Of a stretch of 64,000 bases of DNA, positions 6,853 through 61,382 are shown piece after piece. The DNA lies in the NCBI GenBank assembly GCA_029558535.1, contig JAKQEK010000131.1, positions 1-64,000 on the forward strand. The letters run 5' to 3'. The number at the start of each line of letters is the position of its first letter. Positions within the stretch are counted from its first letter, which is position 1. Below the pieces are notes generated by a model that worked only from the letters and a program-made list of their open reading frames with translations, did not search any database and had not been told where the DNA came from. The stretch comes from Bacteroidota bacterium (GTDB lineage Bacteria > Bacteroidota > Bacteroidia > Bacteroidales > ML635J-15). A program made the translations under genes and the position numbers.

Positions 6853-6858
6853 AAAATT

Positions 6859-8676: not shown

Positions 8677-8687
8677 AAAAGCAAATT

Positions 8688-9098: not shown

Positions 9099-9121
9099 CA
9101 TATAACTATATTCAATAACCG

Positions 9122-9147: not shown

Positions 9148-9149
9148 TC

Positions 9150-9557: not shown

Positions 9558-9607
9558 ACATTCGTTAACAAATCTATCCAGCTATCATAAATGAATGAAA
9601 ATAAAAA

Positions 9608-10021: not shown

Positions 10022-10022
10022 A

Positions 10023-10070
10023 ACTGCTCCTTGTAAGGATGGGTTTAAAACCCATCCTTACAAGTGCAGT
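10023..10070. repeat. Near-perfect 17-bp-arm palindrome between arsC and acr3
   Basis: Arms CTTGTAAGGATGGGTTT (10030-10046) and its complement (10048-10064) flank a single A, and a second arm pair ACTGC/GCAGT (10023-10027, 10066-10070) extends the stem. The lack of a proper loop and of a T-tract argues against an ordinary terminator. It looks like a REP-like intergenic palindrome and could also modulate Acr3 translation or mRNA stability. Confidence 0.6.
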
Positions 10071-10089
10071 TATTAGAATTTTATATAAT

Positions 10090-11109
10090 ATGAAGAAAAT
10101 AGCATTTTTCGAGAAGTACCTAACCTTGTGGGTAGCTGCCTGTATAGGATTGGGTGTAATTATAGGGCATTTTGCAGGAAATGGAATCACGATTCTAACC
10201 GAAATGGAATTATTTAATGTAAATATTCCGGTTGCGATTCTAATTTGGTTAATGATATACCCTATGATGTTGCAAATTGATTTTTCAAGCCTTAAAAGAG
10301 TCGGCAAAGAGCCAAAAGGTTTGATTTTAACAGTAGTTATAAACTGGCTGATAAAACCTTTTACTATGTCTTTTTTCGCGTGGTTGTTTTTCACGAAGAT
10401 TTATTCTGCATTCATTGACCCATCGCTGGCAGGGGAATATATTGCCGGTGCAATTCTTTTAGGAGCTGCTCCATGTACAGCAATGGTTTTTGTGTGGTCA
10501 TATTTATCGGACGGAGATCCAAATTACACACTTGTTCAGGTTTCTGTTAATGACCTGATAATATTGATTGCATTTGTACCAATTGTTGGGTTACTGCTAG
10601 GCATTACAGATGTAAAGATCCCTTACGAAACCTTATTGACTAGTGTAGTTGTTTTTGTAGTAATCCCACTGTTAGCAGGTTATATTACAAATCGTTCGGT
10701 TGTTAAGGCTAAAGGCGAAGAGTGGTTAAAAAAAAATCTATTACCTAAACTTCGTCCATTTTCTATTGTTGCATTGCTGGTAACTTTAGTACTTCTGTTT
10801 GCTTTTCAGGGGGAAATTATCACAGACAATCCATTAATTATACTTTTAGTTGCTGTACCTTTAATTATCCAGACCTATTTCATCTTTTTTATTACTTGGA
10901 TTGGAGGGAAAAAACTAAAACTGCCCTACTCTACTTGTGCTCCTGCTGCAATGATTGGTGCTAGTAACTTTTTCGAGTTGGCTGTTGCTGTTGCAATTGT
11001 TTTATTCGGTTACGACTCTCCTGCAGCTTTGGTAACAGTTGTCGGTGTTCTAGTAGAAGTTCCTGTTATGTTATCGCTGGTTGCTTTTGCAAATAGGAGA
11101 AAATATTGA
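10090..11109 (+). CDS. acr3: Arsenite efflux permease, ACR3 family
   Basis: The 339-residue inner-membrane protein of about ten segments exports As(III) by proton exchange. The essential cysteine lies in [20 protein letters not shown] and the conserved glutamate in [16 protein letters not shown], both hallmarks of ACR3. I place the start at ATG 10090 ([20 protein letters not shown]). A longer frame from 10039 would begin inside the upstream palindrome and add 17 atypical residues. It works with ArsC and ends the cluster. A diverged copy of its last ~95 codons lies 3 kb away at 14169-14453, beyond an oppositely oriented protease gene. Confidence 0.93.
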
Positions 11110-11125
11110 AAAACTATTAACCCTG

Positions 11126-14047: not shown

Positions 14048-14168
14048 AAATTGATAGTTAAATGATATATCAGCAAATATATTTAAATAATTCGAAAAAT
14101 GATATAACAAACATTTAGAGTTTTTTTATCACAGATAGCAAGTTATTCTCTTTCTACTTACATTTAGA

Positions 14169-14453
14169 GACCCTTTGATTATTTTAATTGTTGTAGCATT
14201 TCATTAAATTATCCAAGCCTATTTTATATTCTTTTTAAATTGGTTTGCAGGCAAGAAATTAAAGTTGCCTTATGCAGTTTGTGCTACTTCATCAATGATT
14301 GGAGCTAGTAACTTCTTTGAGCTTGCGGTGGCTGTTGCAATTGTACTTTTTGGTTATGATTCTCCTGCAGCTTTGGTTACTGTTGTAGGAATACTGGGTG
14401 AGGTTCCTGTTATGTTATCGCTGGTTGCTTTTGGAAATAGGAGAAAATATTAA
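14169..14453 (+). pseudogene. Decayed 3' fragment of a second acr3 gene
   Basis: This segment reads as the last ~95 codons of an ACR3 permease and ends NRRKY like the intact gene at 10090-11109. Translation in frame gives DPLIILIVVAFH, an in-frame TAA at 14205-14207, then IIQAYFIFF and [14 protein letters not shown]. No 5' part exists; the upstream side meets the C10 peptidase leader. By eye, roughly 84% of the bases over the last ~160 match, most changes are silent, and the final ~49 bases differ at only two or fewer positions before the stop. A 62-codon open frame from 14265 is only the tail of this remnant. Confidence 0.85.
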
Positions 14454-14472
14454 AAAAAATAATGAGAGTCAG

Positions 14473-14488
14473 TACTTTAAATGAGGTA
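14473..14488. promoter_or_regulatory. Palindrome of the TACCTCAAATGAGGTA family (copy 1, imperfect)
   Basis: TACTTTAAATGAGGTA is followed by TGTTTTACTTG, matching two perfect copies at 16561 and 23231 including the flank. The site is 425 bases upstream of the minus-strand C10 peptidase start, separated from it by the acr3 remnant. It may be a response-regulator site (see the findings). Two mismatches in the left arm make it the weakest copy. Confidence 0.5.
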
Positions 14489-14670
14489 TGTTTTACTTGT
14501 GATATAAAAACAAGCTAAATTGCTGTGAGGTATGATAACAAATGATTATAGAGGTTTTTGTGGTAAGATTTGGAAATTGTAAAATATTTTAGTGGTGATT
14601 AAGAAGGTGTTTTTTTGATTATGATTGGAGTGAGTTATAGCCTATATAAGGATAATTTAGCTATTAAAAT

Positions 14671-14700
14671 GAATAAAAACTAAAAGTTTAGTTTTTATTC
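14671..14700. terminator. Perfect 14-bp-arm AT-rich hairpin
   Basis: Arms GAATAAAAACTAAA and TTTAGTTTTTATTC flank a 2-base centre. It lies about 70 bases beyond the stop of the minus-strand lipoprotein gene (14768) and could terminate it, although the stem has almost no GC. The rest of the 314-base gap 14454-14767 holds the copy-1 palindrome and no gene. Confidence 0.4.
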
Positions 14701-14767
14701 TTCAAGTTGTATTTTTGGTGACATAGATGGCTAAATATTTAGCTAATGGTTAATATAATGGATGCTT

Positions 14768-16444
14768 TTAAGGTCTTGGTACAATCTTTTTAACTATGTT
14801 ACTGGTGTAACCTCCATCTGAAACATATCTTACATTTTGTCTTAATACCGTTGTTGCTCCTCCCCAGCAAAAATCGCAATCAAATGAGCACACATTATTA
14901 TTTGTTATAGCTGCAATATTAATTGAGTGCCATTCCGTAGAGCCTTCAAAACTTCCGTTATTTTCGTTGTCCCATTCTGTTTTGAACTCAATTCTTCCTG
15001 ATGATGGGATTATTCCATCTTTAAAATAAACTGTATTTTTTGCTACAGTACTTGTGTTATGTGTAGGGCATGGATTATTATGATAATTGCTAAAACTGAT
15101 ACTTTGAATTACTGGATTTTCAGCAACTAAAATAGCAGAGTAAGACTTTTCTAATGTATATGAATTTTCATTATATACAAATATAAAATCAAAGTTCTGA
15201 TTAGTAGATTGACTTGTTGAAAATGTCAAGTTTAACTGATTGTCGCTATTGTTAGTTGATAATATCACATTAGAATTGCTTATACCCACAATTGAAGCAT
15301 TAGTCACATTTCCTATTTTCTGTAAAGTATTGTAAGTTGATATATCAGATATAGTTTGTGGGCGACCGGTCAATCCTCCTCCTGAAAATCCAAAAACATT
15401 CTTGATAGTAAGAATAAATCCATCAATTTTACCCCACCAATACTGAAAAGTATCTAAGTGAAGAATTATAGAAGATAAAGTGGAGTTATTTGTGCCAATA
15501 TCAGCATTGTAAACGGATCTTAAATTTACATTAATGTCAAAAGTATATTCATTATCATTTGTAAAAATAAAATCGGTATTTTTTGACGATCCAACTAAAC
15601 TTGAGATAAATGGAATATGTGCAATATCGTAAAATTCAATAGTTTTGTATGCGACTGCTTTTAACTCCCGAACAAGAATAATAGCTGCAGTAATGGCAAT
15701 TATTTTTGTTAAAATGTCTGGAGAGGGTGCAGTTATTGATAAGCCTAGTACTGTTCCAGATGTGCCTATAGTGAATACTTTCTTCAACAAAAATTCTTTG
15801 TAGTTAATTACTGCTTGATTATCGGATTTCACTTTGTTTTTATCTCCAGGTTCGAACAAATCGGGGTTTTCATTAATAAAATGTGCGTATGCAAGCTTTT
15901 CATTTTCATTTAATTGAGAATACGTGTCATTAAAAGAGTTAATCATATTTGTGAGTAAATCAACTTCTTCATTTGCAAGAGAATTACCTGTTTCAGCAGC
16001 TATTGCTTGAGCGTAATCTAAAGTATTGATAATTTCTGATTCTACAGTAGAAATTATAAGGTTGTAATCGTCAATAGTTGTATTTTCTAATATAACAACA
16101 TTTGTAGAGGCAGTGTTGGAATTGTCGAAAGTAAGACTTAAGGAATAAGTGCCAGGCGATAAGTTTGGAACCATTAAAACTAATTCATTCTCTGAAGCTC
16201 TTTTTAGAATTATTTCTTCTGTGCCAATGATTCCGTTATAGTCTTCGTATAAAAGGTCTGTGCCAGTAATTGCTACTGTTACAATTTGATAAGGCCTAAT
16301 GGATGTTTCATTAATATTTATAGCTATAGTATCAATATTATCAGGTGGGTTTTCAACTGTATCTTTTTTGCAGCTTGTATTCAAAGTTAGTATAAAAACT
16401 GATGTAATAATAGCTGTTTTAAGAAATAATTGTTTGCTTTTCAT
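14768..16444 (-). CDS. Large lipoprotein of unknown function
   Basis: The 558-residue product has a lipoprotein signal (LTLNTSC, C25). Residues about 40-120 look like an IPT/TIG-type beta-sandwich (ISGTDLLYED-like spacing, LVLMVPNLSPGTYSLSL). A helical stretch (about 120-215) and a hydrophobic segment near residues 225-265 (SITAPSPDILTKIIAITAAI) follow, then beta-rich sequence with a cysteine-containing end (CSFDCDFCWGG). I do not recognise a family. The membrane-like segment is odd for an outer-membrane lipoprotein. A perfect TACCTCAAATGAGGTA palindrome lies about 117 bases upstream of its start, as for the 1651-residue protein, so the two may be co-regulated. Confidence 0.7.
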   Translation of the reverse strand: MKSKQLFLKTAIITSVFILTLNTSCKKDTVENPPDNIDTIAININETSIRPYQIVTVAITGTDLLYEDYNGIIGTEEIILKRASENELVLMVPNLSPGTYSLSLTFDNSNTASTNVVILENTTIDDYNLIISTVESEIINTLDYAQAIAAETGNSLANEEVDLLTNMINSFNDTYSQLNENEKLAYAHFINENPDLFEPGDKNKVKSDNQAVINYKEFLLKKVFTIGTSGTVLGLSITAPSPDILTKIIAITAAIILVRELKAVAYKTIEFYDIAHIPFISSLVGSSKNTDFIFTNDNEYTFDINVNLRSVYNADIGTNNSTLSSIILHLDTFQYWWGKIDGFILTIKNVFGFSGGGLTGRPQTISDISTYNTLQKIGNVTNASIVGISNSNVILSTNNSDNQLNLTFSTSQSTNQNFDFIFVYNENSYTLEKSYSAILVAENPVIQSISFSNYHNNPCPTHNTSTVAKNTVYFKDGIIPSSGRIEFKTEWDNENNGSFEGSTEWHSINIAAITNNNVCSFDCDFCWGGATTVLRQNVRYVSDGGYTSNIVKKIVPRP

Positions 16445-16560
16445 AATTAGATAAATTTTTTTTCACCTACTCTTTCCCGGATTTTCGGCAAACTCCGTAT
16501 GATTTAATAAACAATGCATTAATATGCTATAAAAATATTGGCAATATTAATACCAGTCAA

Positions 16561-16576
16561 TACCTCAAATGAGGTA
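16561..16576. promoter_or_regulatory. Perfect palindrome TACCTCAAATGAGGTA (copy 2)
   Basis: The 16-base palindrome is preceded by TCAA and followed by TATTTTACT, the same flanks as copy 3 at 23231. It lies 117 bases upstream of the minus-strand lipoprotein gene start (16444) and 211 bases upstream of the plus-strand AbiEi start. Because the other copies also lie upstream of minus-strand exported-protein genes, I assign it to the lipoprotein gene. Confidence 0.6.
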
Positions 16577-16731
16577 TATTTTACTTGAAAGATAAGAAGT
16601 ATATATGATTGAGAATGCTATTTGCCATGACGTTTTTTATAATTTGAGACGTGTTGATGAAAATAGTTTTACGATAATTGGCAGCTTTTGTAAATATTTT
16701 ATTCTAATTTATTTGCACAATTAAAATAGAT

Positions 16732-16771
16732 TTACTATTATTGTGAACTGATAGTAATAATATGTATTACT
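16732..16771 (+). promoter_or_regulatory. Putative AbiEi operator: overlapping inverted repeats
   Basis: AGTAATA (16753-16759) and TATTACT (16765-16771) form a 19-base palindrome ending 15 bases before the AbiEi start. TTACTAT (16732-16738) and ATAGTAA (16751-16757) form a second, overlapping pair. AbiE antitoxins are known to repress their operon by binding inverted repeats upstream. The remainder of the 342-base gap holds copy 2 of the other palindrome. Confidence 0.5.
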
Positions 16772-16786
16772 TATGGGGCACGAATT

Positions 16787-17347
16787 ATGAGTGAACGATT
16801 AATATATACGCTTTTGCAAAGCAAGCAAACTGTGTTTTCAATCAATGAAATTGCTTTGATTGGAAATTTCAAAGAGACGAAAAATCTAAAGAGTCAACTG
16901 AATTATTATGTCAAAACCAACTTATTACTAAATATTAGAAAAGGTTTTTATGCAAAGCATAATTTTAGTATCGAAGAAATTGCCTGCAAACTATACACTC
17001 CTTCATATTTGTCTTTAGACTACGTGTTACAGAAAGAAGGAATAATTTTTCAGTACAATAGCGAAATTACTGCGGTCAGTTACTTGAGTAGAAAAATTAA
17101 TCTTGACTTTTCAAATTTGAAGTATCGAAAAATAAAGTACGATGTTTTATTAAATACGTACGGAATTATAAGGCAAGAAAATGGAGTAAATATTGCTACT
17201 GCAGAGCGTGCTGTACTAGATAGTTTATACTTTAAAAAATCGGGATATTTTGATAATATTTCAGCATTAGATATGGATTTGACAAAAAAAATGCTTGCTA
17301 TTTATAAGTCAAAAGCATTAGAGAAATTATTTTACAAAGTTTTTTAA
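16787..17347 (+). CDS. abiEi: AbiEi-like antitoxin/transcriptional repressor of a type IV toxin-antitoxin pair
   Basis: The 186-residue protein has an N-terminal winged-helix segment (FSINEIALIGNFKETKNLKSQL, then KTNLLLNIRKGFYAK) and the AbiEi core SYLSLDYVLQKEGIIFQ and NIATAERAVLDSLYF. AbiEi proteins bind their own promoter and counteract the cognate nucleotidyltransferase without a stable complex. The stop is one base before the toxin gene, the usual two-gene arrangement. Overlapping inverted repeats just upstream (16732-16771) are a credible operator. Function is assigned from family motifs and neighbour. Confidence 0.85.
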   Translation: MSERLIYTLLQSKQTVFSINEIALIGNFKETKNLKSQLNYYVKTNLLLNIRKGFYAKHNFSIEEIACKLYTPSYLSLDYVLQKEGIIFQYNSEITAVSYLSRKINLDFSNLKYRKIKYDVLLNTYGIIRQENGVNIATAERAVLDSLYFKKSGYFDNISALDMDLTKKMLAIYKSKALEKLFYKVF

Positions 17348-49183: not shown

Positions 49184-49265
49184 ATTTTTTAATTTTAAAA
49201 TTGTAGAGTTACAAAGATAATACAAAAATAAAAAAACAGAATTCTCAAATTAAGAACTCTGTTTG

Positions 49266-49351
49266 TACCCGGGGCCGGGATCGAACCGGCACGATCGTTA
49301 AAGATCACTGGATTTTAAGTCCAGCGCGTCTACCTATTCCGCCACCCGGGC
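49266..49351 (-). tRNA. tRNA-Leu (UAA)
   Basis: The minus-strand sequence folds as a class II tRNA. The acceptor stem is GCCCGGG with CCCGGGT and discriminator A. The anticodon arm is CTGGA-CTTAAAA-TCCAG with anticodon TAA. The long variable arm is TGATCTTTAACGATCG and the T arm GCCGG-TTCGATC-CCGGC. CCA is not encoded. A partial copy of its 5' end lies at 49446-49473. Confidence 0.95.
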
Positions 49352-49445
49352 AACCTATTTATTATAAAGAACTTTCACAACACCTGGGGGCGTCTCCTCG
49401 AAAAACTTCTAAAATCCGTTTTTTCGGATTTTTGGTTTTTCGGGA

Positions 49446-49483
49446 CTATTCCGCCACCCGGGCAACCTATTTATAAAGAACTT
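49446..49483. repeat. Duplicated tRNA-Leu 5' end and flank
   Basis: 28 bases (49446-49473) are identical to 49334-49361, covering the first ~18 nucleotides of the tRNA-Leu gene and 10 bases of its upstream flank. The match resumes after a 3-base gap (TAAAGAACTTT). The intervening 73 bases contain a stem AAATCCG/CGGATTT and no tRNA-like fold. The fragment cannot make a tRNA. It may be a recombination scar or a decayed tandem tRNA gene. Confidence 0.75.
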
Positions 49484-49526
49484 TTTGTTTGATGTTCTAT
49501 AAAACAGAACTCTTTTAAAAAAAAAG

Positions 49527-49599
<73 letters not shown>

Positions 49600-49832
49600 A
49601 AAATAGGTTGCAAATTTAAATCATTTTCTTTTAAAACACCAAATATTTTTACGATTTTTTTTGATATAAAATATTAGCCATTATAAAATATTGCATATCA
49701 AGATATTAGAACAATCCATTTTACAAAAACACACCGAAAAATTTTATTAGATAATTTACACCTGAAGATATTCATTTGATTTACTAACATGAAATATAAA
49801 ACTTTTGTATTTTTACAATAAATATAAATATA

Positions 49833-51446
49833 ATGAAAAAAATAATTACTAGTCTGCTTTTTATTGCTTTCTACTATTCAGTATTAGCTTATCCTGGAAA
49901 AATTATTAAGTCATTCGATGCTCCCGGACAATATATTACCGGTATAACATTCGATGGTAAAAATTTATGGGTGTCTGACCGTAAAGCAGATAAGATTTAT
50001 TGTATTAATCCTGATAACGGTAAGGTTACAAATTCGATTTCAAGTCCTGCCTATTGGCCTGTTGGACTGGCATTTGACGGACAATATTTGTGGAATGCTG
50101 ATGCTAAAGGTGGTATTCCTTTGTCAGAAAACTATATCGGGATGATTTATAAAATAGATCCTAGTGATGGAACGATACTGCATCAATTAGTATCTCCAGC
50201 GCCGGTACCAAAAGATTTGACCTGGGATGGGAAATATTTATGGCTGATTGATGATCGTTTCGATAAATTAGTGCAATTTGACCCAAAAGATGGAACCACA
50301 ATTAAAGAGTTTATTGCACCGGCTTCAAACCCTTCCGGCTTAACATTCGACGGTACATATCTGTGGATCTCGGATTGTGTTACAAACGAAATTTATATGG
50401 TAAATCCTGAAAATGGTACTGTTTTAATGACACTTGATGCCCCGGACAAAAATTCATGTGGACTTGCTTTTGATGGAAAAAACTTATGGAATACAGATCG
50501 TAATAACTGCAAAATATACTGTTTAGTGCATAATGATGAAGAATTATATATTGCTAAAAATCCAAAGAAATCGGTTATTAAATACACTCACCTGACTAGT
50601 AATTTTGGCCCGGGAACTGTTAAAACAACAGATGTATATTTTGCAGTTCCTGAAAACAGAATTAACCAAAAGCTCTTAAAAGAAACGGAATACTCAATAA
50701 AACCTGAATTTATAAAAGACAAATGGGGACAAAATATTGCTCATTTTCAGTCAAAAAATCTTAAATCGGGAGAGCAATTCGAAATTATAGAAACTTTTTA
50801 TGCCGAAACCTATGAGGTAAGATATTTTATTTCTCCGGATAAAGTTGGAAGTTTTGCTGAAATACCACAAGATATAAAAGACAAATATCTGGCGAATGAC
50901 TCTAAATATGAATTTGACCACCCTGTTATTCAAAACGCATTAAAAGAAGCTGTAGGAGATGAAACAAACCCATATTGGATAGCCCGAAAAATCTATGATT
51001 ATCTGATTTTAAAAATGTACTATGAAATGACCGGAGGATGGAATACTGCCCCTACTGTCTTAGCTCGTGGAAACGGTAGCTGTTCCGAATATTCATTTGT
51101 ATATATTTCAATGTGTCGGGCTGCAGGATTACCTGCACGTTATGTAGGTTCAATCGTTCAGCGTGGGCAATTAGTTGCTATGGATGATGTCTTTCATCGA
51201 TGGGTAGAGGTATATTTGCCAAAATATGGATGGATTCCTGTTGATCCGAGCGGAGGAGATCAAACTTCTCCGGCAGCACAGGCAAGATATTTTGGATATT
51301 TAGGGAACCGCTTTTTAATTACCACTCAAAGCGGAGGCGGGTCTGAATATCTTGACTGGCAATACAATTCAAATGTTTACCATACTTGTTCCCCAAAGAC
51401 TTTTGTTGTTCATGAGTATTTTGGCGACTGGGTGGAAGAAGAGTGA
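49833..51446 (+). CDS. Secreted beta-propeller/transglutaminase-like fusion protein
   Basis: The 537-residue protein has a signal peptide (cleavage near VLA|YPG). Residues about 25-235 are six repeats of a Vgb/NHL-like propeller blade (LAFDGQYLWNADAKGG, LTFDGTYLWISDC). Residues about 360-500 carry a transglutaminase-like core with C in ARGNGSCSEYSFVY, H in DDVFHRWVEVYL and D in GWIPVDPSGGD. It could crosslink or cleave peptide or isopeptide bonds outside the cytoplasm. The fusion is unusual. It stands alone: tRNA genes lie upstream and the defence operon downstream. Confidence 0.85.
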   Translation: MKKIITSLLFIAFYYSVLAYPGKIIKSFDAPGQYITGITFDGKNLWVSDRKADKIYCINPDNGKVTNSISSPAYWPVGLAFDGQYLWNADAKGGIPLSENYIGMIYKIDPSDGTILHQLVSPAPVPKDLTWDGKYLWLIDDRFDKLVQFDPKDGTTIKEFIAPASNPSGLTFDGTYLWISDCVTNEIYMVNPENGTVLMTLDAPDKNSCGLAFDGKNLWNTDRNNCKIYCLVHNDEELYIAKNPKKSVIKYTHLTSNFGPGTVKTTDVYFAVPENRINQKLLKETEYSIKPEFIKDKWGQNIAHFQSKNLKSGEQFEIIETFYAETYEVRYFISPDKVGSFAEIPQDIKDKYLANDSKYEFDHPVIQNALKEAVGDETNPYWIARKIYDYLILKMYYEMTGGWNTAPTVLARGNGSCSEYSFVYISMCRAAGLPARYVGSIVQRGQLVAMDDVFHRWVEVYLPKYGWIPVDPSGGDQTSPAAQARYFGYLGNRFLITTQSGGGSEYLDWQYNSNVYHTCSPKTFVVHEYFGDWVEEE

Positions 51447-51691
51447 AAAGGAAAACAAGCTCCAAAATCCGAACTACAAACTCTAAGTCGCAAATTTTTA
51501 GACTAAGCTAGATATTTACTATTCGAATTTTGTTTTTCTCTCAAACTTGTCAATAAAATGAATAATGTTTTTTCATAATTATAAATTTTAAAGTAAGTAA
51601 AGTATATTGTTTTTCTTACAAAGTTTAACATTATGGTGTTAGTGTCATACGCTTTGTAACAGCAGCTTTTAATTTTTTAAAATAAACAACC

Positions 51692-51704
51692 ACTATCTGA
51701 TAGT
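51692..51704. repeat. 13-base palindrome in the spacer before the defence operon
   Basis: ACTATC-T-GATAGT lies in the 394-base gap between the propeller/transglutaminase gene and the XRE gene. Apart from this and the operator at 51805, I see no gene or other element there; the stretch is very AT-rich. Confidence 0.35.
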
Positions 51705-51804
51705 CAAAATATTAACTGACCACACATAAACAAAAAACATAATTGTTAATAACTTCTCAAATAAGTATAAAAAATATTTTAATAAATTATACCCAAGTTA
51801 ATAA

Positions 51805-51830
51805 ATTTGACTATTTTTGACAAGTCAAAT
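51805..51830 (+). promoter_or_regulatory. Promoter with overlapping operator of the XRE-led defence operon
   Basis: ATTTGACT (51805-51812) and AGTCAAAT (51823-51830) are perfect 8-base inverted arms with a 10-base spacer. The -7 element TATTTTTG (51812-51819) lies between them, 22 bases before the ATG at 51841. Binding of the XRE protein would block transcription, as for controller (C) proteins of restriction-modification systems. Autoregulation is inferred. Confidence 0.65.
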
Positions 51831-51840
51831 AAATACTATT

Positions 51841-52128
51841 ATGAAATATTTTGGACGAAGAATCAGAGAATTAAGAGAAAGTCAGGGTTTACTTTTACGG
51901 CAAGTGGCAGCAGCAATTGAAATAGATACTGCACTTATTAGTAAAATTGAAAGAGGAGAAAGGAATGCATCGAAACTACAAGTCGAAAAAATTGCAAACT
52001 ATTTAAATGCTGATCGCGAAGAGTTAATCTCTCTTTGGCTAGCTGATAAAATTGAGTCAACAATAGTTGAAGAACCTGCTGCAGCTTACCATGCTATTAA
52101 TATTGTAAAAAAAAATCTTGAAAAATGA
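51841..52128 (+). CDS. XRE-family controller regulator (C-protein-like)
   Basis: The 95-residue protein starts at ATG 51841 (MKYFGRRIRELRESQGLLLR); a TTG at 51817 would place the start inside the promoter. The helix-turn-helix is LLLRQVAAAIEIDTALISKIERGER, with NASKLQVEKIANYL following. It is the usual HTH_3 fold found just ahead of restriction-modification operons. The end of the gene overlaps the helicase start (ATGA), so it is translationally coupled. It probably represses its promoter at 51805-51830 and delays nuclease expression until methylation is established. Confidence 0.88.
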   Translation: MKYFGRRIRELRESQGLLLRQVAAAIEIDTALISKIERGERNASKLQVEKIANYLNADREELISLWLADKIESTIVEEPAAAYHAINIVKKNLEK

Positions 52129-55100
52129 AAAAAGGTTTAAAGTTAATTGATAATTCCGGAAATGAATTCAAATTAGGGAATCTAGTTAAGGAGCTTCTCA
52201 TAAGTGATGATTATCAAGAGATATCTGTTGCTACTGGGTATTGGGATTTACCAGGAATGGTTTCGATTTTTGATGAACTAAAGTCTTTCTTATCAAAACC
52301 TGACACAAAACTTAGGCTATTAATTGGCGAAGAACCAAATGTAAGATCTTACCAAGTTAAAAATCCAAGTAAACAAGACCCTGATTTTCCGGAAAAATTC
52401 TTAAAGAAAGATCTGGAAGACCTTGAACTTAAGGAGGAGTTTCAAAAAGTTGCTGATTTATTAGTAAAATCTATTTCCAACGAAAACAATAAACTGGAAA
52501 TTAAGGTATATCGTAAAAACTTTTTACATGCAAAATGTTATATTTTTGGAAGCACTGAAGATAATGCCATTGGAATTATTGGAAGCTCAAACTTCACATA
52601 TCAAGGACTCTTTGGAAATCTTGAATTAAATCAATTTGAAGACAACAATTCTACAGTAAATTTCCAAAGAGTTAATTTAAATCAAAACCCATCTCACAGA
52701 AGTTGGTTCGAAGAACTATGGGCAGAATCAGAAGATTGGACAAAAGTGTTTAAAGAAGAGGTGGTTAATATCAGCAAACACGGCAATCTTTGTTTCAGTC
52801 CATACGAAATGTTTATCCATGCTTTATATAGAGTTTACGGTCAGGAATTAGATGATGAGCAAGATGCTAAGATTGAAAATGAAGAAGCAAATCCTGAAGT
52901 ACCAAAACTTCTGAAGTTTCAGATTCAAAATGCCAACAGCCTAATTAAAAAACTTGAAAGACAAGGCGTTGCGATGCTTTCAGATTCAGTTGGACTAGGA
53001 AAGACATACACTGCAATAAAAGTAATTGATTTTTACAAAACCCATTTAAATCAAAGAGTTGTTGTTGTCGCACCTGCTAGTCTAATCCCACAATGGCGGA
53101 AAGCTTTTGATGATTTTAGAATGATTCATATTCCTGAAATCTATAGTTTACAAGATACTGCAAAAATTGAAGATGTAAAAGAAAATTTAAAATCAATACC
53201 AGTTGGGCTATTCGTATTTGATGAAAGTCATAATCTAAGATCATCAGGAGGTCAAAGATTTGATACATTTATTAAATGGAAACAGATTAATAAAAATTCT
53301 AGAACTCTTCTTCTTACTGCAACACCAATAAATAATCAATTATCGGATTTAACCAATCAAATAATGCTTGGCTCGGGCGGAAACATTTATAAACTCGGGA
53401 GATTTTACGACAGAAATCGTCAAAGGTATTTCACTCTAAAAGAAAGGCTCGAGCTATTGCAGACGGACATTAAAAGTCAGATACGTGAAAATGGTACTGT
53501 TAATTATTCACAATTAAAAGAACAACTTACACCTTTATTAAATAGGTTTATTGTTCGCCGAACTCGCCAAGGTATTGAGAAAGAATATCCTAATGGATTG
53601 GAAATAAATGGTAAACTTCAAATTTTTCCAATTTCGACACCAGATAATTTAGAATATGAAGTGCCAAATCAATATAAAACCAAATTACTTAAAATAGCTG
53701 AAGAATTTCCGGAATTATTAAACAATTGCCAATTCGAAATAAGCAGCTTAGCCGAAATGGAGTACCTTGCTCACCCTTTGGATTTATCTGAGCATTATCA
53801 AAAAAGAGAAAAACCGATTTCTTCATCTTTAGAAATCATTTATACTGCACTTTTAAGTCTGGGATTCCCAAGTTATAGGTATAATATGTACCGATATGCT
53901 TATCACGGTAAGAGAAGGGAAGAATTAGAACTAAATGCTGACGAAAACAGAGAGTTGAGCAGACAAATTGGGATATATGGAATTTTCAGAACTGTTTTTC
54001 TAAAAAGATTAGAATCTTCCTTATATTCAATAAATAAATCAATAATAGGATATGAAACTAAATTAAAAGATTTCAAAACCAAATTAGAAAAATATAACAA
54101 AATCATTTCGGTAAAAAATTTAAATACTCTTAACAAAGCTTTGGAGATTTATAATGAGCAATGTGCCAGTGAGGATGAACTTGATTTTGACATTGAAATG
54201 TTCGAATTAAATGATAGCATGTTTTATTCGATAGAGGCTGATCCAGGATTTTTCAATATTGATAAATTAAAAGATGATATTAACAAAGACCTGAAAATAC
54301 TTGGCATTTTAAAACAACAAATCGAGCTTCTTATATCCAAAGATGATAAAATTCAAGTTTTAGCGAAACACCTTAATCAAAATGATGACAGCAAAATTTT
54401 AATTTTCACATATTTCGCCGACACACTTGAGTATTTGTCAAAATTCTTACCTAACTATTTAGTAAAAGGTAAAAATATAGAATTTGCTATTGGTGGTAAA
54501 AATGATATTGAGAATTATGCCCGCAGATTTGCTCCTGTTGCAAAAAAATATGATTTAAAAACAGATGAAAGAGAAATTGATTTCTTAGTCGCAACAGATA
54601 AATTATCGGAAGGACAGAATTTACAGGATAGCGGAATGATAATTAACTATGATTTACACTGGAATCCTGTTAGAATGATCCAACGTAACGGTAGAATAAA
54701 CCGATTGGGAACAAAACATGAGGAAATTTTCATTTATAATTTTAGGCCAACAGAGCAACTGGAAAGTTATTTAAAATTGGTCAGCAAACTTCAGGACAAA
54801 ATAAATTTAATTCGATACACAATTGGAAGCGACCAAAGTGTACTCGATGAAGAGCCGATACCACAGGACTTTACAGAAGATTTGTACAGCCGTGATGAAA
54901 AGAAAAGACTGGAAGCTTACAAAAAAATATTTGAAACGTCCGAACTGCTTGCTGCCGAAGATTTATTTATGGATGATTTAAGAGAATTTGACAGAAATGA
55001 AAACTTAAGTCAAGAATACAAAAAGTCAATCCGCAATTTGCCTAAAGGAAAATGGGGAAACATTAAAATGAAAAAAGAAGATGAAGATTTTGATTACCTA

Positions 55101-55625
55101 GCACATCTTGTGGCCGAAGGCGAAGAAAAATTGGAAGCTGGCTATTTCTTTGCTTTTAAAAAAGACGGACAAGGTGAAATGCTAACTGCAACAGAGGGTT
55201 TACTTTCAATCAAAGCAACTAGCGAAGAAAATCAAAGATTTAAGGACCCTTTCATGAACAAACCAAGTGTCGAAGAAATGATAAGCAATTTCATTAGAAA
55301 CTATCAATTTCAGGAAGATGATCACCAAAACCGCTTTAACAATTCACAGCAAGCATGTATAAATCAGCTAATAATCAAGATGATTGAATATGGATACGCA
55401 GCTGACATAATCGAAAATGTAAATTTAATGATTACATCATCTCAAAATGCGTATATAAATAAAGAAATAATGAAACTTGTAAGAGTAATAAATAGAAGGA
55501 ATCGAAACAATGAAGCTTTTTCTGACGAATTAATACAGAAATTTATCAGCCTTGTAAAACAATTTGATCCCGAAGAAAAATCTGATAAAATTCCGCTAAG
55601 TGAAGTAATTCAAATTTTCTGTTAA
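52125..55625 (+). CDS. PLD-nuclease/SNF2-family helicase fusion
   Basis: The 1166-residue protein has an N-terminal phospholipase-D-like domain (about 20-190: NFLHAKCYIF with H135 and K137, then IIGSSNFTYQGL) and an SF2/SNF2 helicase. Walker A is SVGLGKTYTA (about 287-296), motif II FDESHN, motif III LTATP, and motifs V-VI are ATDKLSEGQNLQDSG and QRNGRINRLG (~852). The HKD aspartate position is glycine (G142). The region 410-850 is a long helical insertion. It probably translocates on foreign DNA and cuts it, in the manner of defence helicase-nucleases. It overlaps the XRE gene by four bases; the methyltransferase follows after 36. Confidence 0.88.
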   Translation: MKKGLKLIDNSGNEFKLGNLVKELLISDDYQEISVATGYWDLPGMVSIFDELKSFLSKPDTKLRLLIGEEPNVRSYQVKNPSKQDPDFPEKFLKKDLEDLELKEEFQKVADLLVKSISNENNKLEIKVYRKNFLHAKCYIFGSTEDNAIGIIGSSNFTYQGLFGNLELNQFEDNNSTVNFQRVNLNQNPSHRSWFEELWAESEDWTKVFKEEVVNISKHGNLCFSPYEMFIHALYRVYGQELDDEQDAKIENEEANPEVPKLLKFQIQNANSLIKKLERQGVAMLSDSVGLGKTYTAIKVIDFYKTHLNQRVVVVAPASLIPQWRKAFDDFRMIHIPEIYSLQDTAKIEDVKENLKSIPVGLFVFDESHNLRSSGGQRFDTFIKWKQINKNSRTLLLTATPINNQLSDLTNQIMLGSGGNIYKLGRFYDRNRQRYFTLKERLELLQTDIKSQIRENGTVNYSQLKEQLTPLLNRFIVRRTRQGIEKEYPNGLEINGKLQIFPISTPDNLEYEVPNQYKTKLLKIAEEFPELLNNCQFEISSLAEMEYLAHPLDLSEHYQKREKPISSSLEIIYTALLSLGFPSYRYNMYRYAYHGKRREELELNADENRELSRQIGIYGIFRTVFLKRLESSLYSINKSIIGYETKLKDFKTKLEKYNKIISVKNLNTLNKALEIYNEQCASEDELDFDIEMFELNDSMFYSIEADPGFFNIDKLKDDINKDLKILGILKQQIELLISKDDKIQVLAKHLNQNDDSKILIFTYFADTLEYLSKFLPNYLVKGKNIEFAIGGKNDIENYARRFAPVAKKYDLKTDEREIDFLVATDKLSEGQNLQDSGMIINYDLHWNPVRMIQRNGRINRLGTKHEEIFIYNFRPTEQLESYLKLVSKLQDKINLIRYTIGSDQSVLDEEPIPQDFTEDLYSRDEKKRLEAYKKIFETSELLAAEDLFMDDLREFDRNENLSQEYKKSIRNLPKGKWGNIKMKKEDEDFDYLAHLVAEGEEKLEAGYFFAFKKDGQGEMLTATEGLLSIKATSEENQRFKDPFMNKPSVEEMISNFIRNYQFQEDDHQNRFNNSQQACINQLIIKMIEYGYAADIIENVNLMITSSQNAYINKEIMKLVRVINRRNRNNEAFSDELIQKFISLVKQFDPEEKSDKIPLSEVIQIFC

Positions 55626-55661
55626 AATTTAAAACCAAGAATAACTCAATAATTAAACAGT

Positions 55662-58600
55662 ATGAACATAATTGACCTTAACCAAATATTAGCAAGTTTA
55701 TCGGAATCAAAACGCGAAAATGTTTTCAATTTTGCTTTCGCAATTATGGAATGGATGGGAATTGAACCAAATGGTGACAAAAAACCGCAGTTGGTTGCAC
55801 CGCAGACTCAAAAACTGAAAGATTTTCTTGTTCCTGCACCACAAACTGTTCAACCACAATTATACAGGCTTAGTGCCGAAAGCCAAAACATCCGTATTCG
55901 TTTTGCAGTTCTAAAAAAGATAAAAAAAGAATATGTTAGTCAATTAGTTGACAACGATCCTGGACTAATGAGTTATCAGGCTTTTACTAAGAACATAAGT
56001 CAAGAAATTGCTGCAAAAGGCTATATTCCGTCACAGCCTTATTATCTGCATTTTGTCACAACACCTCAATACGATAAACTGATACTAATCTTTAACCATG
56101 GCGATCAAAAACGTTTAGTTAGCTTTAAAAACAGGCTTACAACTACCCAGTACAACAAAATACTTGAGAAATGGGCTTATATCGCTACTAAATCAAAACC
56201 GGAAATTGTAGAAACATTATGGAAATCGCTTGATATTAAAGAAGTTAACAAGGAATTCTACAAAAGAATTAAAGAACAGTTCGACAATCTCATCGAAATT
56301 GCAAAAACACAAGATTCTTTGGCACATGAAGAAGTTTTAAAACAGTTTGCTGTTCGCCTTATTGGCAGATACATTTTTTGTTGGTTCTTAAAAGAAAAGG
56401 GTATTATTCCAAAGGAGTTGCTTGAATCTGATACAATTTTAAGGTACAAGGATGATTTTAGTTCAACAATATTAACAAAACTGTTTTTCAAAACTTTAAA
56501 TGCTGAAGTTTCAGATCCGATACGCAAAGATATTACAACAGATTTGGATGATTTTTATAAAAGTATTCCTTACTTAAATGGGGGCTTATTCGAAGTTCAT
56601 AGCGAAGACTATTTATTTGAAAAACTTAATTTAAATCAGTGGTTAATTAGTTTTGTTGGAGTTCTTGAAAGTTTCGATTTTACAGTTGACGAAGGCAATA
56701 GCCAATACCAACATGTTGCGATTGATCCGGAAATGCTCGGTCGTATTTTTGAAAATTTACTTGCCAGTCAGAATCCCGAGACAGAAAAAATGGCAAATCA
56801 GCGAAAAGCATTTGGAGCATTTTACACTCCGCGCGAAATTGTTGATTATATGGTTAACGAAAGCCTTAAAGCTCATTTAGAAACTGCACTTTTTAGAGAT
56901 ATTTTAAAAATAGAAGATACAGTTAACGAACCGGCATCTCAGTTCAACGATGGTTTATTCTCTGTTACCAAACTTGAAGAACCTAAACCCACGCCTTATT
57001 CTGTTGCAAATGATAAAGAAGCAAAGGACAAAGAAAAGACACTTAGCAAAATTGAAAGACTTTTTGCTATAGATTGTTCCGATAATCCTTTCGACAAAGC
57101 CGAAACCGAAGTTGTAAAAAAAGCTTTGAGCGAAATTACAGTTTTAGACCCTGCTTGTGGTTCGGGAGCTTTTCCAATGGGTGTTATGCTAAGGCTGATG
57201 GAACTTCGCCAAATTGTAGGACACGGGCATCGCAATAATTATGACCTTAAAGAAGAAATTCTGAGTAAAAACATTTTTGGCGTGGATATTATGCCAATGG
57301 CAGTAGAAATTGCAAGACTAAGGGCATGGTTAAGCCTTGTTCTTGAATCGGATTTTAAACCTACAGATAAAAAGAACAATTTTGGAATTGCAGCCTTGCC
57401 AAATTTGGATTTTAAATTTGTTTGTGCAAACAGTTTGATAGATAGTGGATATGATGATTTTGCCGGCAAACTTAGCCTTAATGCAACGCTTTACAGATTA
57501 GATGGTGAAATTCAAAAATTGGAACGTATAAGAAATGATTATTTCGACCCCAAAGGAGATAAAGCGATTAAGAAACAATTGCAAAACGAGTTCACACAAA
57601 CCAAAGATTACATAAAATCTCAAATAAGTCACGGCAGCTTACTAAAAAACTACAATCTTACCGATTTCTTTAACAAAGTTGACGATTGGAATCCTTTCGA
57701 CGATAGCCGACCATCGAGTTTCTTTTCCCCTGCCTGGATGTTTGGTATTAAAAACGGTTTTGATTTAGTAATAGGGAATCCTCCGTATATTAGTGCAAAT
57801 AATATGAAGTTTGAAGAGAGAACTTTCTTCAATAAATATAAATATTATTCATCATTAACTGGTAAATGGGATTTATACGTTGCATTTATAGAAAGAGCAC
57901 TTAAATTATTGGTAAATAAAGGTCAATTAATATTTATTGTTCCATTTGGTTTGCTAAATCAGCCTTTTGCAGAAGCTTTAAGAGGGATTATTTTAAATAA
58001 GTTTAAACTACTAAGTATTGTTGATTTACATAACAATAAAGTATTTGAAAGCGCAACGGTTCCATCATGTATTCCGCTTATAAAAAATGAAAGCGGGGAA
58101 AATTATCCGATCTCAATTTTTGAGTTTATTAATGACATGTTTATTAAAAAACATGAAATAAACGTTCTGAAATATCATATTGCAAATCAAAAGATGTTTA
58201 GAACTGAGGACTTGGATTCTAAAACTGAAGTTTTGAATAAGATAAAGAACAATGGTGAAAAACTTGATTCTTTCTTTTATTGTTCAACTGGAGCAGAAAT
58301 TCATGGAAAAGAAAAAAGAAATAACGACGGTTCTCTTACGTCTGGTAAAAGTAAATTTGATGTTTTATATGATCAATTTAGAAACGGTTTAATGCCTTAT
58401 ATTGAAGGCGCTGATATAAAAAAATCAAAAGAAGGTAGATACTCTACACCATCAATTAAAAAGTGGCTTGATTATAGTGAGCCTGAAAAAATGAGATCTG
58501 CCAAATTTATAGAGTTATTTGAGAGCAATAAAATAATTGTTCGACGAAGTTCGGGGCTATTAAGAATTCTAGCAATTTATGATGAGCGTAAAATATATAC

Positions 58601-59003
58601 TTCAGAAAAATGTTTATTGATAATAAAAAAATCAGACTTGCCTGCAACCCATTCACAATACAGCAATAAAACTCCTTTAGAATTAAAATATCTTGTTGCT
58701 ATTATTAATAGTAAACTTATAGATTTTTATTATGAAAATGTGTATGGTGGGTTTATTGACGTTTATCCAAACAATTTAAAGGAGTTGCCTATTATCATTG
58801 GCAGTAAGGAATTAATGGAATCAATAATTAATCATGTTGATAAGATAATCAAATATAGAAAAGAAGGAGAAAACACCGAACCTATAGAACGCCAAATAGA
58901 CTTATTGATTTACAAACTTTACGAACTAACCTATAACGAAGTAAAAATAATTGATCCTGAATTTTGGCTAAGTGAGGAGGAGTATAATAAAATTAAGTTG
59001 TAA
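55662..59003 (+). CDS. Eco57I-like N6-adenine DNA methyltransferase with target-recognition region
   Basis: The 1113-residue protein has the motifs of type IIG/BREX PglX-like enzymes: FGAFYTPREIVDYMV (about 384), motif I VLDPACGSGAFPMG (about 494-506) and motif IV VIGNPPYIS (about 704-712). The C-terminal third (TGKWDLYVAFIERAL to KELPIIIG) is a TaqI-like specificity domain. The first ~230 residues are helical and show no PD-(D/E)xK nuclease that I can see, so cutting probably falls to the PLD-helicase. It would methylate host DNA at an unknown asymmetric site. The RES-domain gene is 5 bases after its stop. Confidence 0.9.
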   Translation: MNIIDLNQILASLSESKRENVFNFAFAIMEWMGIEPNGDKKPQLVAPQTQKLKDFLVPAPQTVQPQLYRLSAESQNIRIRFAVLKKIKKEYVSQLVDNDPGLMSYQAFTKNISQEIAAKGYIPSQPYYLHFVTTPQYDKLILIFNHGDQKRLVSFKNRLTTTQYNKILEKWAYIATKSKPEIVETLWKSLDIKEVNKEFYKRIKEQFDNLIEIAKTQDSLAHEEVLKQFAVRLIGRYIFCWFLKEKGIIPKELLESDTILRYKDDFSSTILTKLFFKTLNAEVSDPIRKDITTDLDDFYKSIPYLNGGLFEVHSEDYLFEKLNLNQWLISFVGVLESFDFTVDEGNSQYQHVAIDPEMLGRIFENLLASQNPETEKMANQRKAFGAFYTPREIVDYMVNESLKAHLETALFRDILKIEDTVNEPASQFNDGLFSVTKLEEPKPTPYSVANDKEAKDKEKTLSKIERLFAIDCSDNPFDKAETEVVKKALSEITVLDPACGSGAFPMGVMLRLMELRQIVGHGHRNNYDLKEEILSKNIFGVDIMPMAVEIARLRAWLSLVLESDFKPTDKKNNFGIAALPNLDFKFVCANSLIDSGYDDFAGKLSLNATLYRLDGEIQKLERIRNDYFDPKGDKAIKKQLQNEFTQTKDYIKSQISHGSLLKNYNLTDFFNKVDDWNPFDDSRPSSFFSPAWMFGIKNGFDLVIGNPPYISANNMKFEERTFFNKYKYYSSLTGKWDLYVAFIERALKLLVNKGQLIFIVPFGLLNQPFAEALRGIILNKFKLLSIVDLHNNKVFESATVPSCIPLIKNESGENYPISIFEFINDMFIKKHEINVLKYHIANQKMFRTEDLDSKTEVLNKIKNNGEKLDSFFYCSTGAEIHGKEKRNNDGSLTSGKSKFDVLYDQFRNGLMPYIEGADIKKSKEGRYSTPSIKKWLDYSEPEKMRSAKFIELFESNKIIVRRSSGLLRILAIYDERKIYTSEKCLLIIKKSDLPATHSQYSNKTPLELKYLVAIINSKLIDFYYENVYGGFIDVYPNNLKELPIIIGSKELMESIINHVDKIIKYRKEGENTEPIERQIDLLIYKLYELTYNEVKIIDPEFWLSEEEYNKIKL

Positions 59004-59008
59004 AAAAA

Positions 59009-59839
59009 ATGCGAGAAGATAGCATATCCAAATTAGCATTACTAGTCAATTTTGCTTTCGCGCAAAAGTTTATTTTCCACACATATAAATTTGATTTTCA
59101 GCATGTTTACCGAGGACGTAAGTTTGAATATTCGAAAAATTACAACCTTGAAAAAGTCAAAAAAAAAGTTACAAACATAAAAGACATGTGGGCACCACCA
59201 GCAAGATACGCTTCAAATAACCGATGCAATAGAGCTGGAGACCCAAAGCTATATTTAACCACATTAAAAAAAGCCATTCCCTTTGAATTAAGATATGAAT
59301 TAGGAGATAAAATTGCGATAATTACTTACAAATCTATTGAGCAATTAAATAAAATTGCAGTTATTGGATGCAAGCAACTCATGCAAACTGATGAAATATT
59401 CAAAGATATTTTTATTTATCATCTTAAAGATAAAAGCTTAGAAGTAAAACAAATTGAAGACATGTTTGCTAACTTTTACATAAAACCTAAAGATTATAAC
59501 ATGAAGCAACATGAATGGTTCTTGAAGAAATATAATCTACCAATCGATTTAAGACTTTATGATTTAACGATTGCCGTATCAGAAAACTATCTTAATTCAG
59601 GAGTTCATGGATTGATATATCCTTGTGTAGCACAAAATTTTAAAAGTGCCAATTTTGTTTTGCAGCCAGAGCAATTTGCTGAAATATTAAAGCCAACTGC
59701 AATTGAAATTTATGACAGTTTTATACTCAAAGACAATAACAATGTTGTTACCAGATTGTTATCAAGCGGGTATTTTGAAAACAGCGGAAATATCTCATGG
59801 TCAGATTCAAGTACAAATAATTGGATAGAATGGGAATAA
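59009..59839 (+). CDS. RES-domain protein, putative NAD-degrading effector
   Basis: The 276-residue protein fits the RES fold: HVYRGRKF with R35, NRCNRAGDPKLYLTTLKKAI (core strand and loop, 71-90), E93 in IPFELRYELG, and SGVHGLIYPCVAQN (198-210) near the position of the final conserved serine. That serine is a cysteine here (C206). RES toxins (ParT, MbcT and Res) degrade or modify NAD to arrest growth. Here the gene ends a restriction-modification-like operon, so it may be an abortive-infection effector. Residues 1-30 and 110-190 have no family I recognise. The assignment rests on motif spacing only; a diverged activity or structural role is possible. Confidence 0.6.
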   Translation: MREDSISKLALLVNFAFAQKFIFHTYKFDFQHVYRGRKFEYSKNYNLEKVKKKVTNIKDMWAPPARYASNNRCNRAGDPKLYLTTLKKAIPFELRYELGDKIAIITYKSIEQLNKIAVIGCKQLMQTDEIFKDIFIYHLKDKSLEVKQIEDMFANFYIKPKDYNMKQHEWFLKKYNLPIDLRLYDLTIAVSENYLNSGVHGLIYPCVAQNFKSANFVLQPEQFAEILKPTAIEIYDSFILKDNNNVVTRLLSSGYFENSGNISWSDSSTNNWIEWE

Positions 59840-59873
59840 AATAAGAGGCTGTCTAAAAAGGCAGCCTCTTATT
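59840..59873. terminator. Terminator at the end of the defence operon
   Basis: Arms AATAAGAGGCTG and CAGCCTCTTATT flank a ten-base loop and are followed by T7. It starts next to the stop codon of the RES gene and also serves the convergent flotillin gene. The core GAGGCTG is shared with the hairpin at 18184. Confidence 0.85.
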
Positions 59874-59876
59874 TTT

Positions 59877-61382
59877 TTATTTTTCTGTTTTCGGTTTCGG
59901 TTTTACCTCTTCAGCTTCAATCAATGGAGGCTCAGTTCCTTTTTCATCAACCGGTGCTTTTCCTTTCAGATAATCGGGTAATTCAATACCGGCCATTTTA
60001 AATAATTCATTAAACGGAGGAATTGACCCCAGCATTCCTGAAAGAAAGTTAGCTGTTGTGGGTTTGCCACCATTAGCACCTCCGCCCATATTGTCCCAAA
60101 CGGTAATCTTATCAATTTTAAGATTTTTAATAGCTTCGACCTGAGATTTGACAATATCCGGCAATTTATCTGCAATCATCAGCATAACTGCATCACGGGA
60201 ATTATCTCCGGCAGCCTTAACAATCTTATCGAAACCTTCTGCTTGCTTGCTAAGAATTTCATATATACCTTTACCTTCGGCCTGCATTTTGAGTAAAATT
60301 GCGTCTGCCTCACCTTTAGCAAGTCTGCGGGTTTGTTCAGCAATAGCATCGGCAGCAATTTCAATTTTTTGTTTATCAATTTCTGTAGGAACAACCACAT
60401 TAGCGTATTGAGTAGCTTTGTCTCTTAAAGCTCTTATCTCTTCAGCAATTTTTTCTGCAGCATACGCGTCTTCGAGAGCTTTTGCCCGTTTTACTTTTTC
60501 TGCAGATATAGCAATACGTTCTGCTTCGGCTTGTTGCTCACGGCGTTTAGCATCAGAATTTGCAATGGTAATTTTAGCAAGGTTTTCTCCTTCCACAGCC
60601 AATGCGTCTGCCTCTGAAGTTTTTACACGTTCCTGACGCTGAGCATCAGCTTCACCGATTTTAGCATAAGCCAAAGCCCCGGCTACTTTAACCCTTTGTT
60701 CTTTTTCTGCTTCTGCCTGACCAATTTCCCCGTCACGATTCTTTTCAGCAACAGATTTCTTGGCATCGTTGATAGCTTTTGCAGCAGCTTCTTTTCCAAG
60801 TGCAATAATATAACCCGATTCATCATTTAAGTCTGTAACGTTAACGTTTATTAATTTCAGACCTATTTTCTTCAACTCAGCTTCAACATTTGATGAAACA
60901 GCTTCGAGGAACTTATCACGGTTTGAGTTAATTTCCTCAATATCCATTGTTGCAACAACAAGACGCAATTGTCCGAATAAAATATCTTCGGCCAATTTAC
61001 TGATATCCTGTTGTGAAAGTCCTAACAAGCGTTCTGCTGCATTTGTCATTACACTGTCCTCAGTGCTAATACCAACAGTAAAACGAGATGGAACATCCAC
61101 ACGAATGTTTTGTTTAGACAAAGCACTTCTCAGATTTATTTCAATTGAAAATGGTGTAAGGTCAAGAAATTCATAATCCTGAATTACGGGCCAAATAAAA
61201 GCCGCTCCACCGTGAATACATTTTGCTGTTCGCGACTCAAGATTTTTCTTGCCAACTTTACCATAAATAACTAAGATTCTGTCAGATGGACAACGTTTGT
61301 ATCTTCTCAGAAATGTAATAATCAGTATAAATACAAATATTACTACTGCAACAATAATAAATAAAAAATATTCTCCATTCAT
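59877..61382 (-). CDS. Flotillin-like SPFH-domain membrane protein
   Basis: The 501-residue protein has an N-terminal membrane helix (about 5-25), an SPFH/band 7 domain (about 30-190, RILVIYGKVG; DVPSRFTVGIST) and a long EA-rich coiled coil (about 200-370, AEAEKEQRVKVAG; ADAQRQERVKTS). The C-terminal part is proline- and glutamate-rich. Flotillins organise membrane microdomains as oligomers. The NfeD-like gene 25 bases upstream on the same strand is the usual partner. It converges with the defence operon. Confidence 0.9.
   Translation of the reverse strand: MNGEYFLFIIVAVVIFVFILIITFLRRYKRCPSDRILVIYGKVGKKNLESRTAKCIHGGAAFIWPVIQDYEFLDLTPFSIEINLRSALSKQNIRVDVPSRFTVGISTEDSVMTNAAERLLGLSQQDISKLAEDILFGQLRLVVATMDIEEINSNRDKFLEAVSSNVEAELKKIGLKLINVNVTDLNDESGYIIALGKEAAAKAINDAKKSVAEKNRDGEIGQAEAEKEQRVKVAGALAYAKIGEADAQRQERVKTSEADALAVEGENLAKITIANSDAKRREQQAEAERIAISAEKVKRAKALEDAYAAEKIAEEIRALRDKATQYANVVVPTEIDKQKIEIAADAIAEQTRRLAKGEADAILLKMQAEGKGIYEILSKQAEGFDKIVKAAGDNSRDAVMLMIADKLPDIVKSQVEAIKNLKIDKITVWDNMGGGANGGKPTTANFLSGMLGSIPPFNELFKMAGIELPDYLKGKAPVDEKGTEPPLIEAEEVKPKPKTEK

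Follow-up and report, generated by a model that had tools for sequence, protein, structure and literature searches.

A divergent RES-domain gene at the tail of a predicted ATP-dependent restriction-modification operon in a Bacteroidota bacterium

Among the restriction enzymes that depend on adenosine triphosphate (ATP), SauUSI is a modification-dependent fusion of a PLD-type nuclease with a helicase and has no partner methyltransferase. The present report concerns a four-gene operon in which a fusion of this type is followed by a methyltransferase gene and a RES-domain gene; it lies in a 64,000-nucleotide stretch, here called the window, from a Bacteroidota bacterium (order Bacteroidales, ML635J-15; assembly GCA_029558535.1, contig JAKQEK010000131.1, positions 1 to 64,000 of the forward strand). 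Among its closest described relatives are the Type-2 BREX-Related (BR) systems, restriction-modification (R-M)-like assemblies in which an HKD endoDNase forms the N-terminus of a Swi2/Snf2 helicase and is accompanied by an N6-methyltransferase, with variable auxiliary effectors nearby (PMC12839542). The same source calls HKD nucleases well established in ATP-dependent R-M and gives the backup effectors as nucleases, and neither ‘res domain’ nor ‘nad’ occurs in its main text. ATP-dependent restriction is also carried out by CglI and NgoAVII, where nuclease, helicase-like ATPase and methyltransferase work together, the first two as separate proteins (PMC4267653, PMC5737866), and by SauUSI itself, an ATP-dependent endonuclease (PMC7913695). 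DISARM and ARMADA place a SNF2/RapA-like helicase beside a PglX-like methyltransferase (PMC12458937), and Hma combines a helicase with a 5-methylcytosine (m5C) methyltransferase and an ATPase gene (PMC8565338). RES domains, for their part, are known from NatT-type toxins, which cleave nicotinamide adenine dinucleotide (NAD+; PMC11535050).

The operon in the window joins an R-M core of a known kind to a locus-specific, co-transcribed RES gene whose product would most likely be an NAD+-cleaving backup, arresting growth when restriction has failed – a reading that sequence comparison suggests and to which we assign a probability of roughly 0.5. Its four open reading frames (ORFs), co-directional in the ORF listing and all on the + strand (51817/51841-59839), are tightly packed: the XRE and helicase-nuclease genes overlap by 4 bases, and the following gaps measure 36 and 5 bases. 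The features are these:

51805-51830, no strand assigned: controller operator, an inverted repeat, ATTTGACT-N10-AGTCAAAT
51816-51829, within the inverted repeat: inner operator motif TTTGACAAGTCAAA
51841-52128, + strand: XRE controller protein, 95 residues from ATG (HTH_31, HTH_3; PADLOC control protein, E 3.3e-11)
52125-55625, + strand: PLD(HKD)-SNF2 helicase-nuclease, 1166 residues (Pfam; PADLOC C3a139)
55662-59003, + strand: Eco57I-class DNA methyltransferase with TaqI_C specificity domain, 1113 residues (Pfam)
59009-59839, + strand: divergent RES-domain protein, 276 residues, cargo gene (profile homology)
59838-59875, + strand: intrinsic terminator of the operon, a 17-pair stem followed by a T run

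The stem at 59838-59875 is the sole + strand terminator between operon start and end; the terminator scan found 4 sites against 4.3 expected in shuffles, and the remaining 3 lack a comparable stem. The layout, which the first-pass annotation had already described with these gaps, one operator and one terminator, held up in every point and supports the placement of a RES-type gene at the operon tail, in the same transcription unit as the core.

The identities proposed earlier for the two large proteins – a PLD-nuclease/SNF2-helicase fusion and an Eco57I-like methyltransferase – were confirmed by domains and motifs. In the helicase-nuclease, Pfam recognises an N-terminal PLDc_2 domain and an NgoFVII-type PLD domain, followed by SNF2 and Helicase_C, and the best PADLOC model is C3a139 ‘HKD+Snf2’ (E 9.2e-44); H135, K137, N156, G290-K293, DESH366-369 and QRNGRINR853-860 are invariant in an alignment of three sequences, the window protein and two relatives at 62% and 35% identity. 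The methyltransferase carries Eco57I and TaqI_C domains, keeps DPACGSGAF496-504 and NPPY706-709 invariant across three aligned sequences and matches the PADLOC type IIG models at E 8.2e-87, with no nuclease domain revealed by Pfam in the same chain. An HKD/PLD nuclease, a helicase and a DNA methyltransferase are encoded together here, which is the general mark of ATP-dependent R-M with an HKD nuclease; and because Type-2 BR systems are described as pairing an HKD-Swi2/Snf2 fusion with an N6-methyltransferase, the operon core – XRE, PLD(HKD)-SNF2 and Eco57I/TaqI_C methyltransferase – is of a known kind.

This core recurs across the phylum. A helicase match at E <= 1e-20 occurs in 75 of 395 genomes, the window’s own included, and of 20 Bacteroidota loci fetched from 18 of these genomes, 19 have a methyltransferase no more than about 2 kb from the helicase, with at least 79 further core loci coming from a scan of genome contigs. 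Drawing on the matches listed in that scan, a wider census comprised 101 core loci and a close clade 22 (one from the 20-locus set, 21 among the listed matches). L143 was excluded from the close-clade count, its called ORF not being a full helicase; L007, L066 and L167 were left unused, having stops within the match, and L148, split into two ORFs, was omitted from alignments. Among 18 same-genus genomes there was no close copy of the helicase, and two held distant relatives; viral contigs yielded two helicase loci, both without RES.

The XRE protein has only a helix-turn-helix (HTH) domain (HTH_31/HTH_3), and Pfam finds no Xre_MbcA_ParS_C domain in it. Its start could be TTG 51817, as in the ORF listing, or ATG 51841; the TTG falls within the operator, and the ATG is probably the true start. 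Among the matches listed, 13 of the 22 close-clade relatives have a called XRE gene – the ORF caller could miss small genes – and the inner operator motif, taken from the window itself, recurs with at most 3 mismatches in 12 of those 13. In relatives, a second TTTGACA half-site is frequently seen ahead of TTTGACAAGTCAAA.

The fourth protein matches no family in Pfam, PADLOC or NCBIfam, and across the whole genome the Pfam RES model matches only a different gene, on contig C33. Used as a query, however, the protein found matches at E <= 0.001 in 13 other genomes of the 395 in the phylum (one of them, L007, being 60 residues containing a stop), and all 6 scanned proteins retrieved in this way match PF08808, 4 of them above cut-off. 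A profile of 12 RES proteins, from which the window protein had been left out, recovers it at E 5.4e-11, against a best E of 0.082 among 200 shuffled copies, and hhalign gives a probability of 98.1 against RES; the RES call of the first-pass annotation is borne out by this independent profile and by hhalign. With a profile of 15 RES genes, mostly short ones of toxin type, there is no match to it at E <= 1, which places the window protein at a distance from toxin-type RES; it belongs to a different, longer subfamily. Alignment and spacing map R35, R72, Y82, Y184, C206 and N215 onto the NatT active-site residues R23, R82, Y93, Y162, S184 and N193 (PMC11535050), so that 5 of the 6 are kept; the spacing of the last three equals NatT’s (22 and 9), and that from second to third is 10 against 11. 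No plasmid match was found, none in viral contigs with the single protein as query, and no RES chain among PDB sequences, whether with the profile built from RES alignment A3 or with the single sequence; in viral contigs the A3 profile retrieved 15 distant loci, and a RES relative used as query one more. By inspection, two relatives, L168 and L170, lie near toxin-antitoxin-like or transposase-like ORFs.

Set beside the systems introduced above, the window shares with the Type-2 BR systems the HKD-SNF2 fusion and the N6-methyltransferase-class partner; unlike them, its operon is limited to four genes, and neither a DUF499 ATPase nor DUF3780 is found among their products by Pfam at E <= 1 (for the flanks, PADLOC was the library used). 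Its NgoFVII-type PLD domain recalls CglI and NgoAVII, from which it differs in the fusion of nuclease and helicase. Unlike DISARM and ARMADA, its operon lacks a YprA-like helicase, DrmA and DrmB: the helicase stays below the DISARM DrmD cut-offs (NCBIfam DrmD, 142 bits against 610; DrmD_b, 70.7 against 950), its weak DrmA match of 69 bits is a matter of shared helicase motifs, and PADLOC finds no DrmA or DrmB gene among the operon proteins or eight flanking proteins. Seven of these eight match nothing in PADLOC; the other, which we take to be UvrA-like, matches 17 families, with mad3 first (E 8.5e-93), read here as ABC-ATPase similarity. The earlier statement that BREX and DISARM core genes are absent stands for the operon and the eight flanking proteins scanned with PADLOC. 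With Hma the likeness extends to the helicase part, matched by the HmaA model; unlike Hma, the operon has a methyltransferase of the Eco57I type and no ATPase gene behind it. As for NatT, the RES domain and active-site spacing agree, whereas the window protein has no antitoxin partner, belongs to the longer subfamily and has cysteine for serine; an adjacent antitoxin with Xre_MbcA_ParS_C, by which Xre-RES toxin-antitoxin modules are recognised, is missing beside the RES gene, unlike at loci L061 and L057 (described below). The first-pass annotation had not recognised the set as a named system; the core is of a recognised kind, and searches limited to open-access papers brought up no RES gene in such an R-M operon.

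Gene order, domains, motifs, operator conservation, the site empty in a same-genus genome and RES homology are observed; every activity, and any link between RES and the core, is predicted. In outline, the system would most likely work as follows. The methyltransferase would mark host DNA, adenine N6 methylation being expected of the Eco57I class; the PLD-SNF2 protein would travel along DNA and cut what is unmarked; and the XRE controller at the operon head would time expression through the conserved operator. The operon, in a variable site, may have acquired an orphan RES-domain gene at its 3' end, co-transcribed with the core, whose product would cleave NAD+ as NatT does, lower NAD(P)+ when released or overproduced, and serve as a locus-specific backup that halts growth once restriction has failed. 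Restraint might come from binding to the core or from low activity due to the cysteine. Since core tails vary and sometimes hold NAD-linked genes, a role for RES as a locus-specific accessory, a NAD-directed suicide effector kept as backup, is plausible.

Several observations weigh against this reading. RES was seen in the tail in one genome only: 14 of the 22 close-clade loci show the 3' end of the methyltransferase gene, and two RES profiles found RES behind it in 0 of these 14, 3 of them on contigs that stop within the next 600 bases. In the neighbourhoods examined, the RES relatives L168-L172 stand alone, without a core of this sort next to them; no antitoxin was found for the window RES, and the position of NatT S184 is occupied by a cysteine, C206. 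Structure models were too poor to confirm a RES fold (mean predicted local distance difference test score, pLDDT, 31.5 from a single sequence and 45.4 from six); with so poor a model, Foldseek returned nothing at E <= 0.001, its best match, at a non-significant E of 0.12, being titled insecticidal-protein catalytic domain.

In the wider census, too, RES was found in the tail slot of 0 of 101 core loci, 99 of which were seen by the first profile and all 101 by the second. The first profile, from alignment A3, missed the Xre-RES genes of two loci (L061 at E 0.71, L057 absent from the matches), both of which a Pfam-based search revealed; the second, from 15 RES genes including those of L061 and L057, matched in these two loci alone. 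The second does not recover the window RES, so each profile covers its own part of the family, and a third, divergent kind could escape both.

What the slot holds varies. A co-directional gene of at least 100 residues follows within 60 bases of the methyltransferase in 8 of the 14 close-clade loci, as listed here by Pfam match:

L046: DUF559
L068: DUF5131
L069: ABC transporter-like
L071: GHKL ATPase
L075: SMC-like ATPase
L085: weak 23S-IVP
L067 and L079: no Pfam match

Pfam covered 10 + 10 proteins plus some others, a part of the tail genes of the wider loci, so that the NAD-linked tails described below do not amount to a rate; several of the tails scanned have no match. At L071 (4436-11520), the close-clade core is followed by the GHKL ATPase gene and a 633-residue gene without a Pfam match; the neighbourhood recalls the GHKL ATPases described as adjoining R-M genes in PMC2292703. 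Across the loci, the 3' tail of the methyltransferase is a variable slot, holding TIR, DarT with a macrodomain, SIR2-like proteins, nucleases or ATPases elsewhere.

A tentative alternative, which we take seriously without expecting it to hold, is that an orphan mobile RES gene landed behind the methyltransferase and became co-transcribed by accident, with no role in restriction. It would account for RES being seen behind no other such core and for the stand-alone relatives, with the neighbours already noted for L168 and L170; it sits less well with the 5-base spacing, the same strand, the shared terminator and the intact frame, or with the defence-type genes that the tails of such cores often bear.

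NAD-linked genes do occur near other cores. At L061 (G195, 7566-11937, minus strand), a complete Xre-RES pair lies 123 bases upstream of the core helicase on the same strand, and at L057 such a pair lies about 2 kb from the core on the opposite strand; both antitoxins carry Xre_MbcA_ParS_C, which the window XRE lacks. A second core in the window’s own genome, L053 (contig C236 of G000, 1544-9708, minus strand), has its helicase-methyltransferase pair followed, in overlapping order, by a 220-residue gene without a Pfam match and a ThsB-type TIR gene; a TIR_2 search of this genome matched only there, below the family cut-off. The core pair at L048 (G146, 8823-17236) is followed by DarT and a macrodomain gene. 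SIR2-like genes stand 125 bases behind the methyltransferase at L089 (16607-17755) and second behind it at L065 (G124, 15696-16919), both with cores of the wider family.

Searches of whole genomes gave a broader view. PF08808 matched in 37 of 118 core-bearing genomes (61 + 57), with 64 matches in all; in the 74 with helicase coordinates there were 52 RES matches, of which 2, in G195 and G313, lie no farther than 10 kb from a helicase match, and in the remaining 44, reached through loci, core flanks were the part scanned for RES. TIR_2 matched in 20 of 61 genomes; helicase coordinates exist for 17 of the 20, and among them a single TIR, that of G124, lay about 8 kb from the core. SIR2_2 matched in 31 of 75 genomes (42 matches), G124, G215 and G224 each having one match no farther than 10 kb from that of a helicase. 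Uniform placement, calculated by hand, would give about 0.4 for RES and 0.3 for SIR2 against the observed 2 and 3. Proximity exceeds this expectation; no enrichment is claimed, because defence genes cluster anyway and there was no matched control set. A more speculative extension, which we consider unlikely, would make HKD-SNF2/methyltransferase cores a platform with an exchangeable tail, one class of tail being NAD-directed (RES in the window, the ThsB-type TIR at the second core, DarT with a macrodomain in G146, SIR2-like genes in G124 and at L089); the window RES might then act against phage, restrained by the restriction complex instead of an antitoxin.

It is improbable that the RES-like protein does not cleave NAD at all, being either dead or a transferase with another target. 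The change from serine to cysteine at the NatT S184 position, the longer subfamily to which the toxin-type profile is blind and the title of the top, non-significant Foldseek match all lean that way, and the retention of R35, R72, Y82, Y184 and N215 speaks against it. The view of the first-pass annotation, in which all four genes make up a single conserved defence system with two layers, would suit their single operon and is very unlikely given that two profiles found RES in none of the 14 close-clade and none of the 101 tails, within the limits set by 3 contigs that end early and by a divergent RES that could escape; as a member of a conserved set, RES was rejected by the census. That annotation had itself named a chance presence of RES at this locus in other genomes as evidence against its view, which is largely what emerged, RES appearing in just 2 of 101 loci, each time in an Xre-RES pair of its own that does not occupy the tail slot. 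Least probable of all is that XRE is the antitoxin of a RES toxin, the pair having been split by an inserted R-M pair: XRE and RES do co-occur in known toxin-antitoxin modules, and beside such cores at L061 and L057, but the window XRE is without Xre_MbcA_ParS_C and recurs with core and operator where no RES is found.

The locus lies beside tRNA genes in a stretch that differs among related genomes:

49712-59898, no strand assigned: stretch absent from the same-genus genome G969, a variable site beside tRNA genes
49833-51446: transglutaminase-like gene inside the variable stretch (Transglut_core)

This transglutaminase-like gene neighbours the operon on one side, and on the other is a convergent gene, presumably flotillin-like, judged by its sequence. 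About 10.2 kb, the operon included, is missing in G969, because there the sequences matching window 49711 and window 59899 are only 77 bases apart. Genes for tRNA-Gly and tRNA-Leu adjoin the site (window 49265-49711 and 59899 onward), and G967 departs from the window over the 320 bases that follow the flotillin-like gene. The borders of the variable stretch share no direct repeat of 9 or more bases. Beside tRNA genes, empty in G969 and differing in other same-genus genomes, the site is a possible insertion hotspot.

According to the 2024 NatT paper, no RES toxin-antitoxin system had been implicated in immunity, the known NAD-targeting immunity using TIR and SIR2 (PMC11535050). A RES gene in an R-M operon without the usual antitoxin would offer a cheap and concrete test of whether RES proteins act in defence and of how a restriction complex might restrain one, and it makes the 3' end of such cores worth searching for backup effectors.

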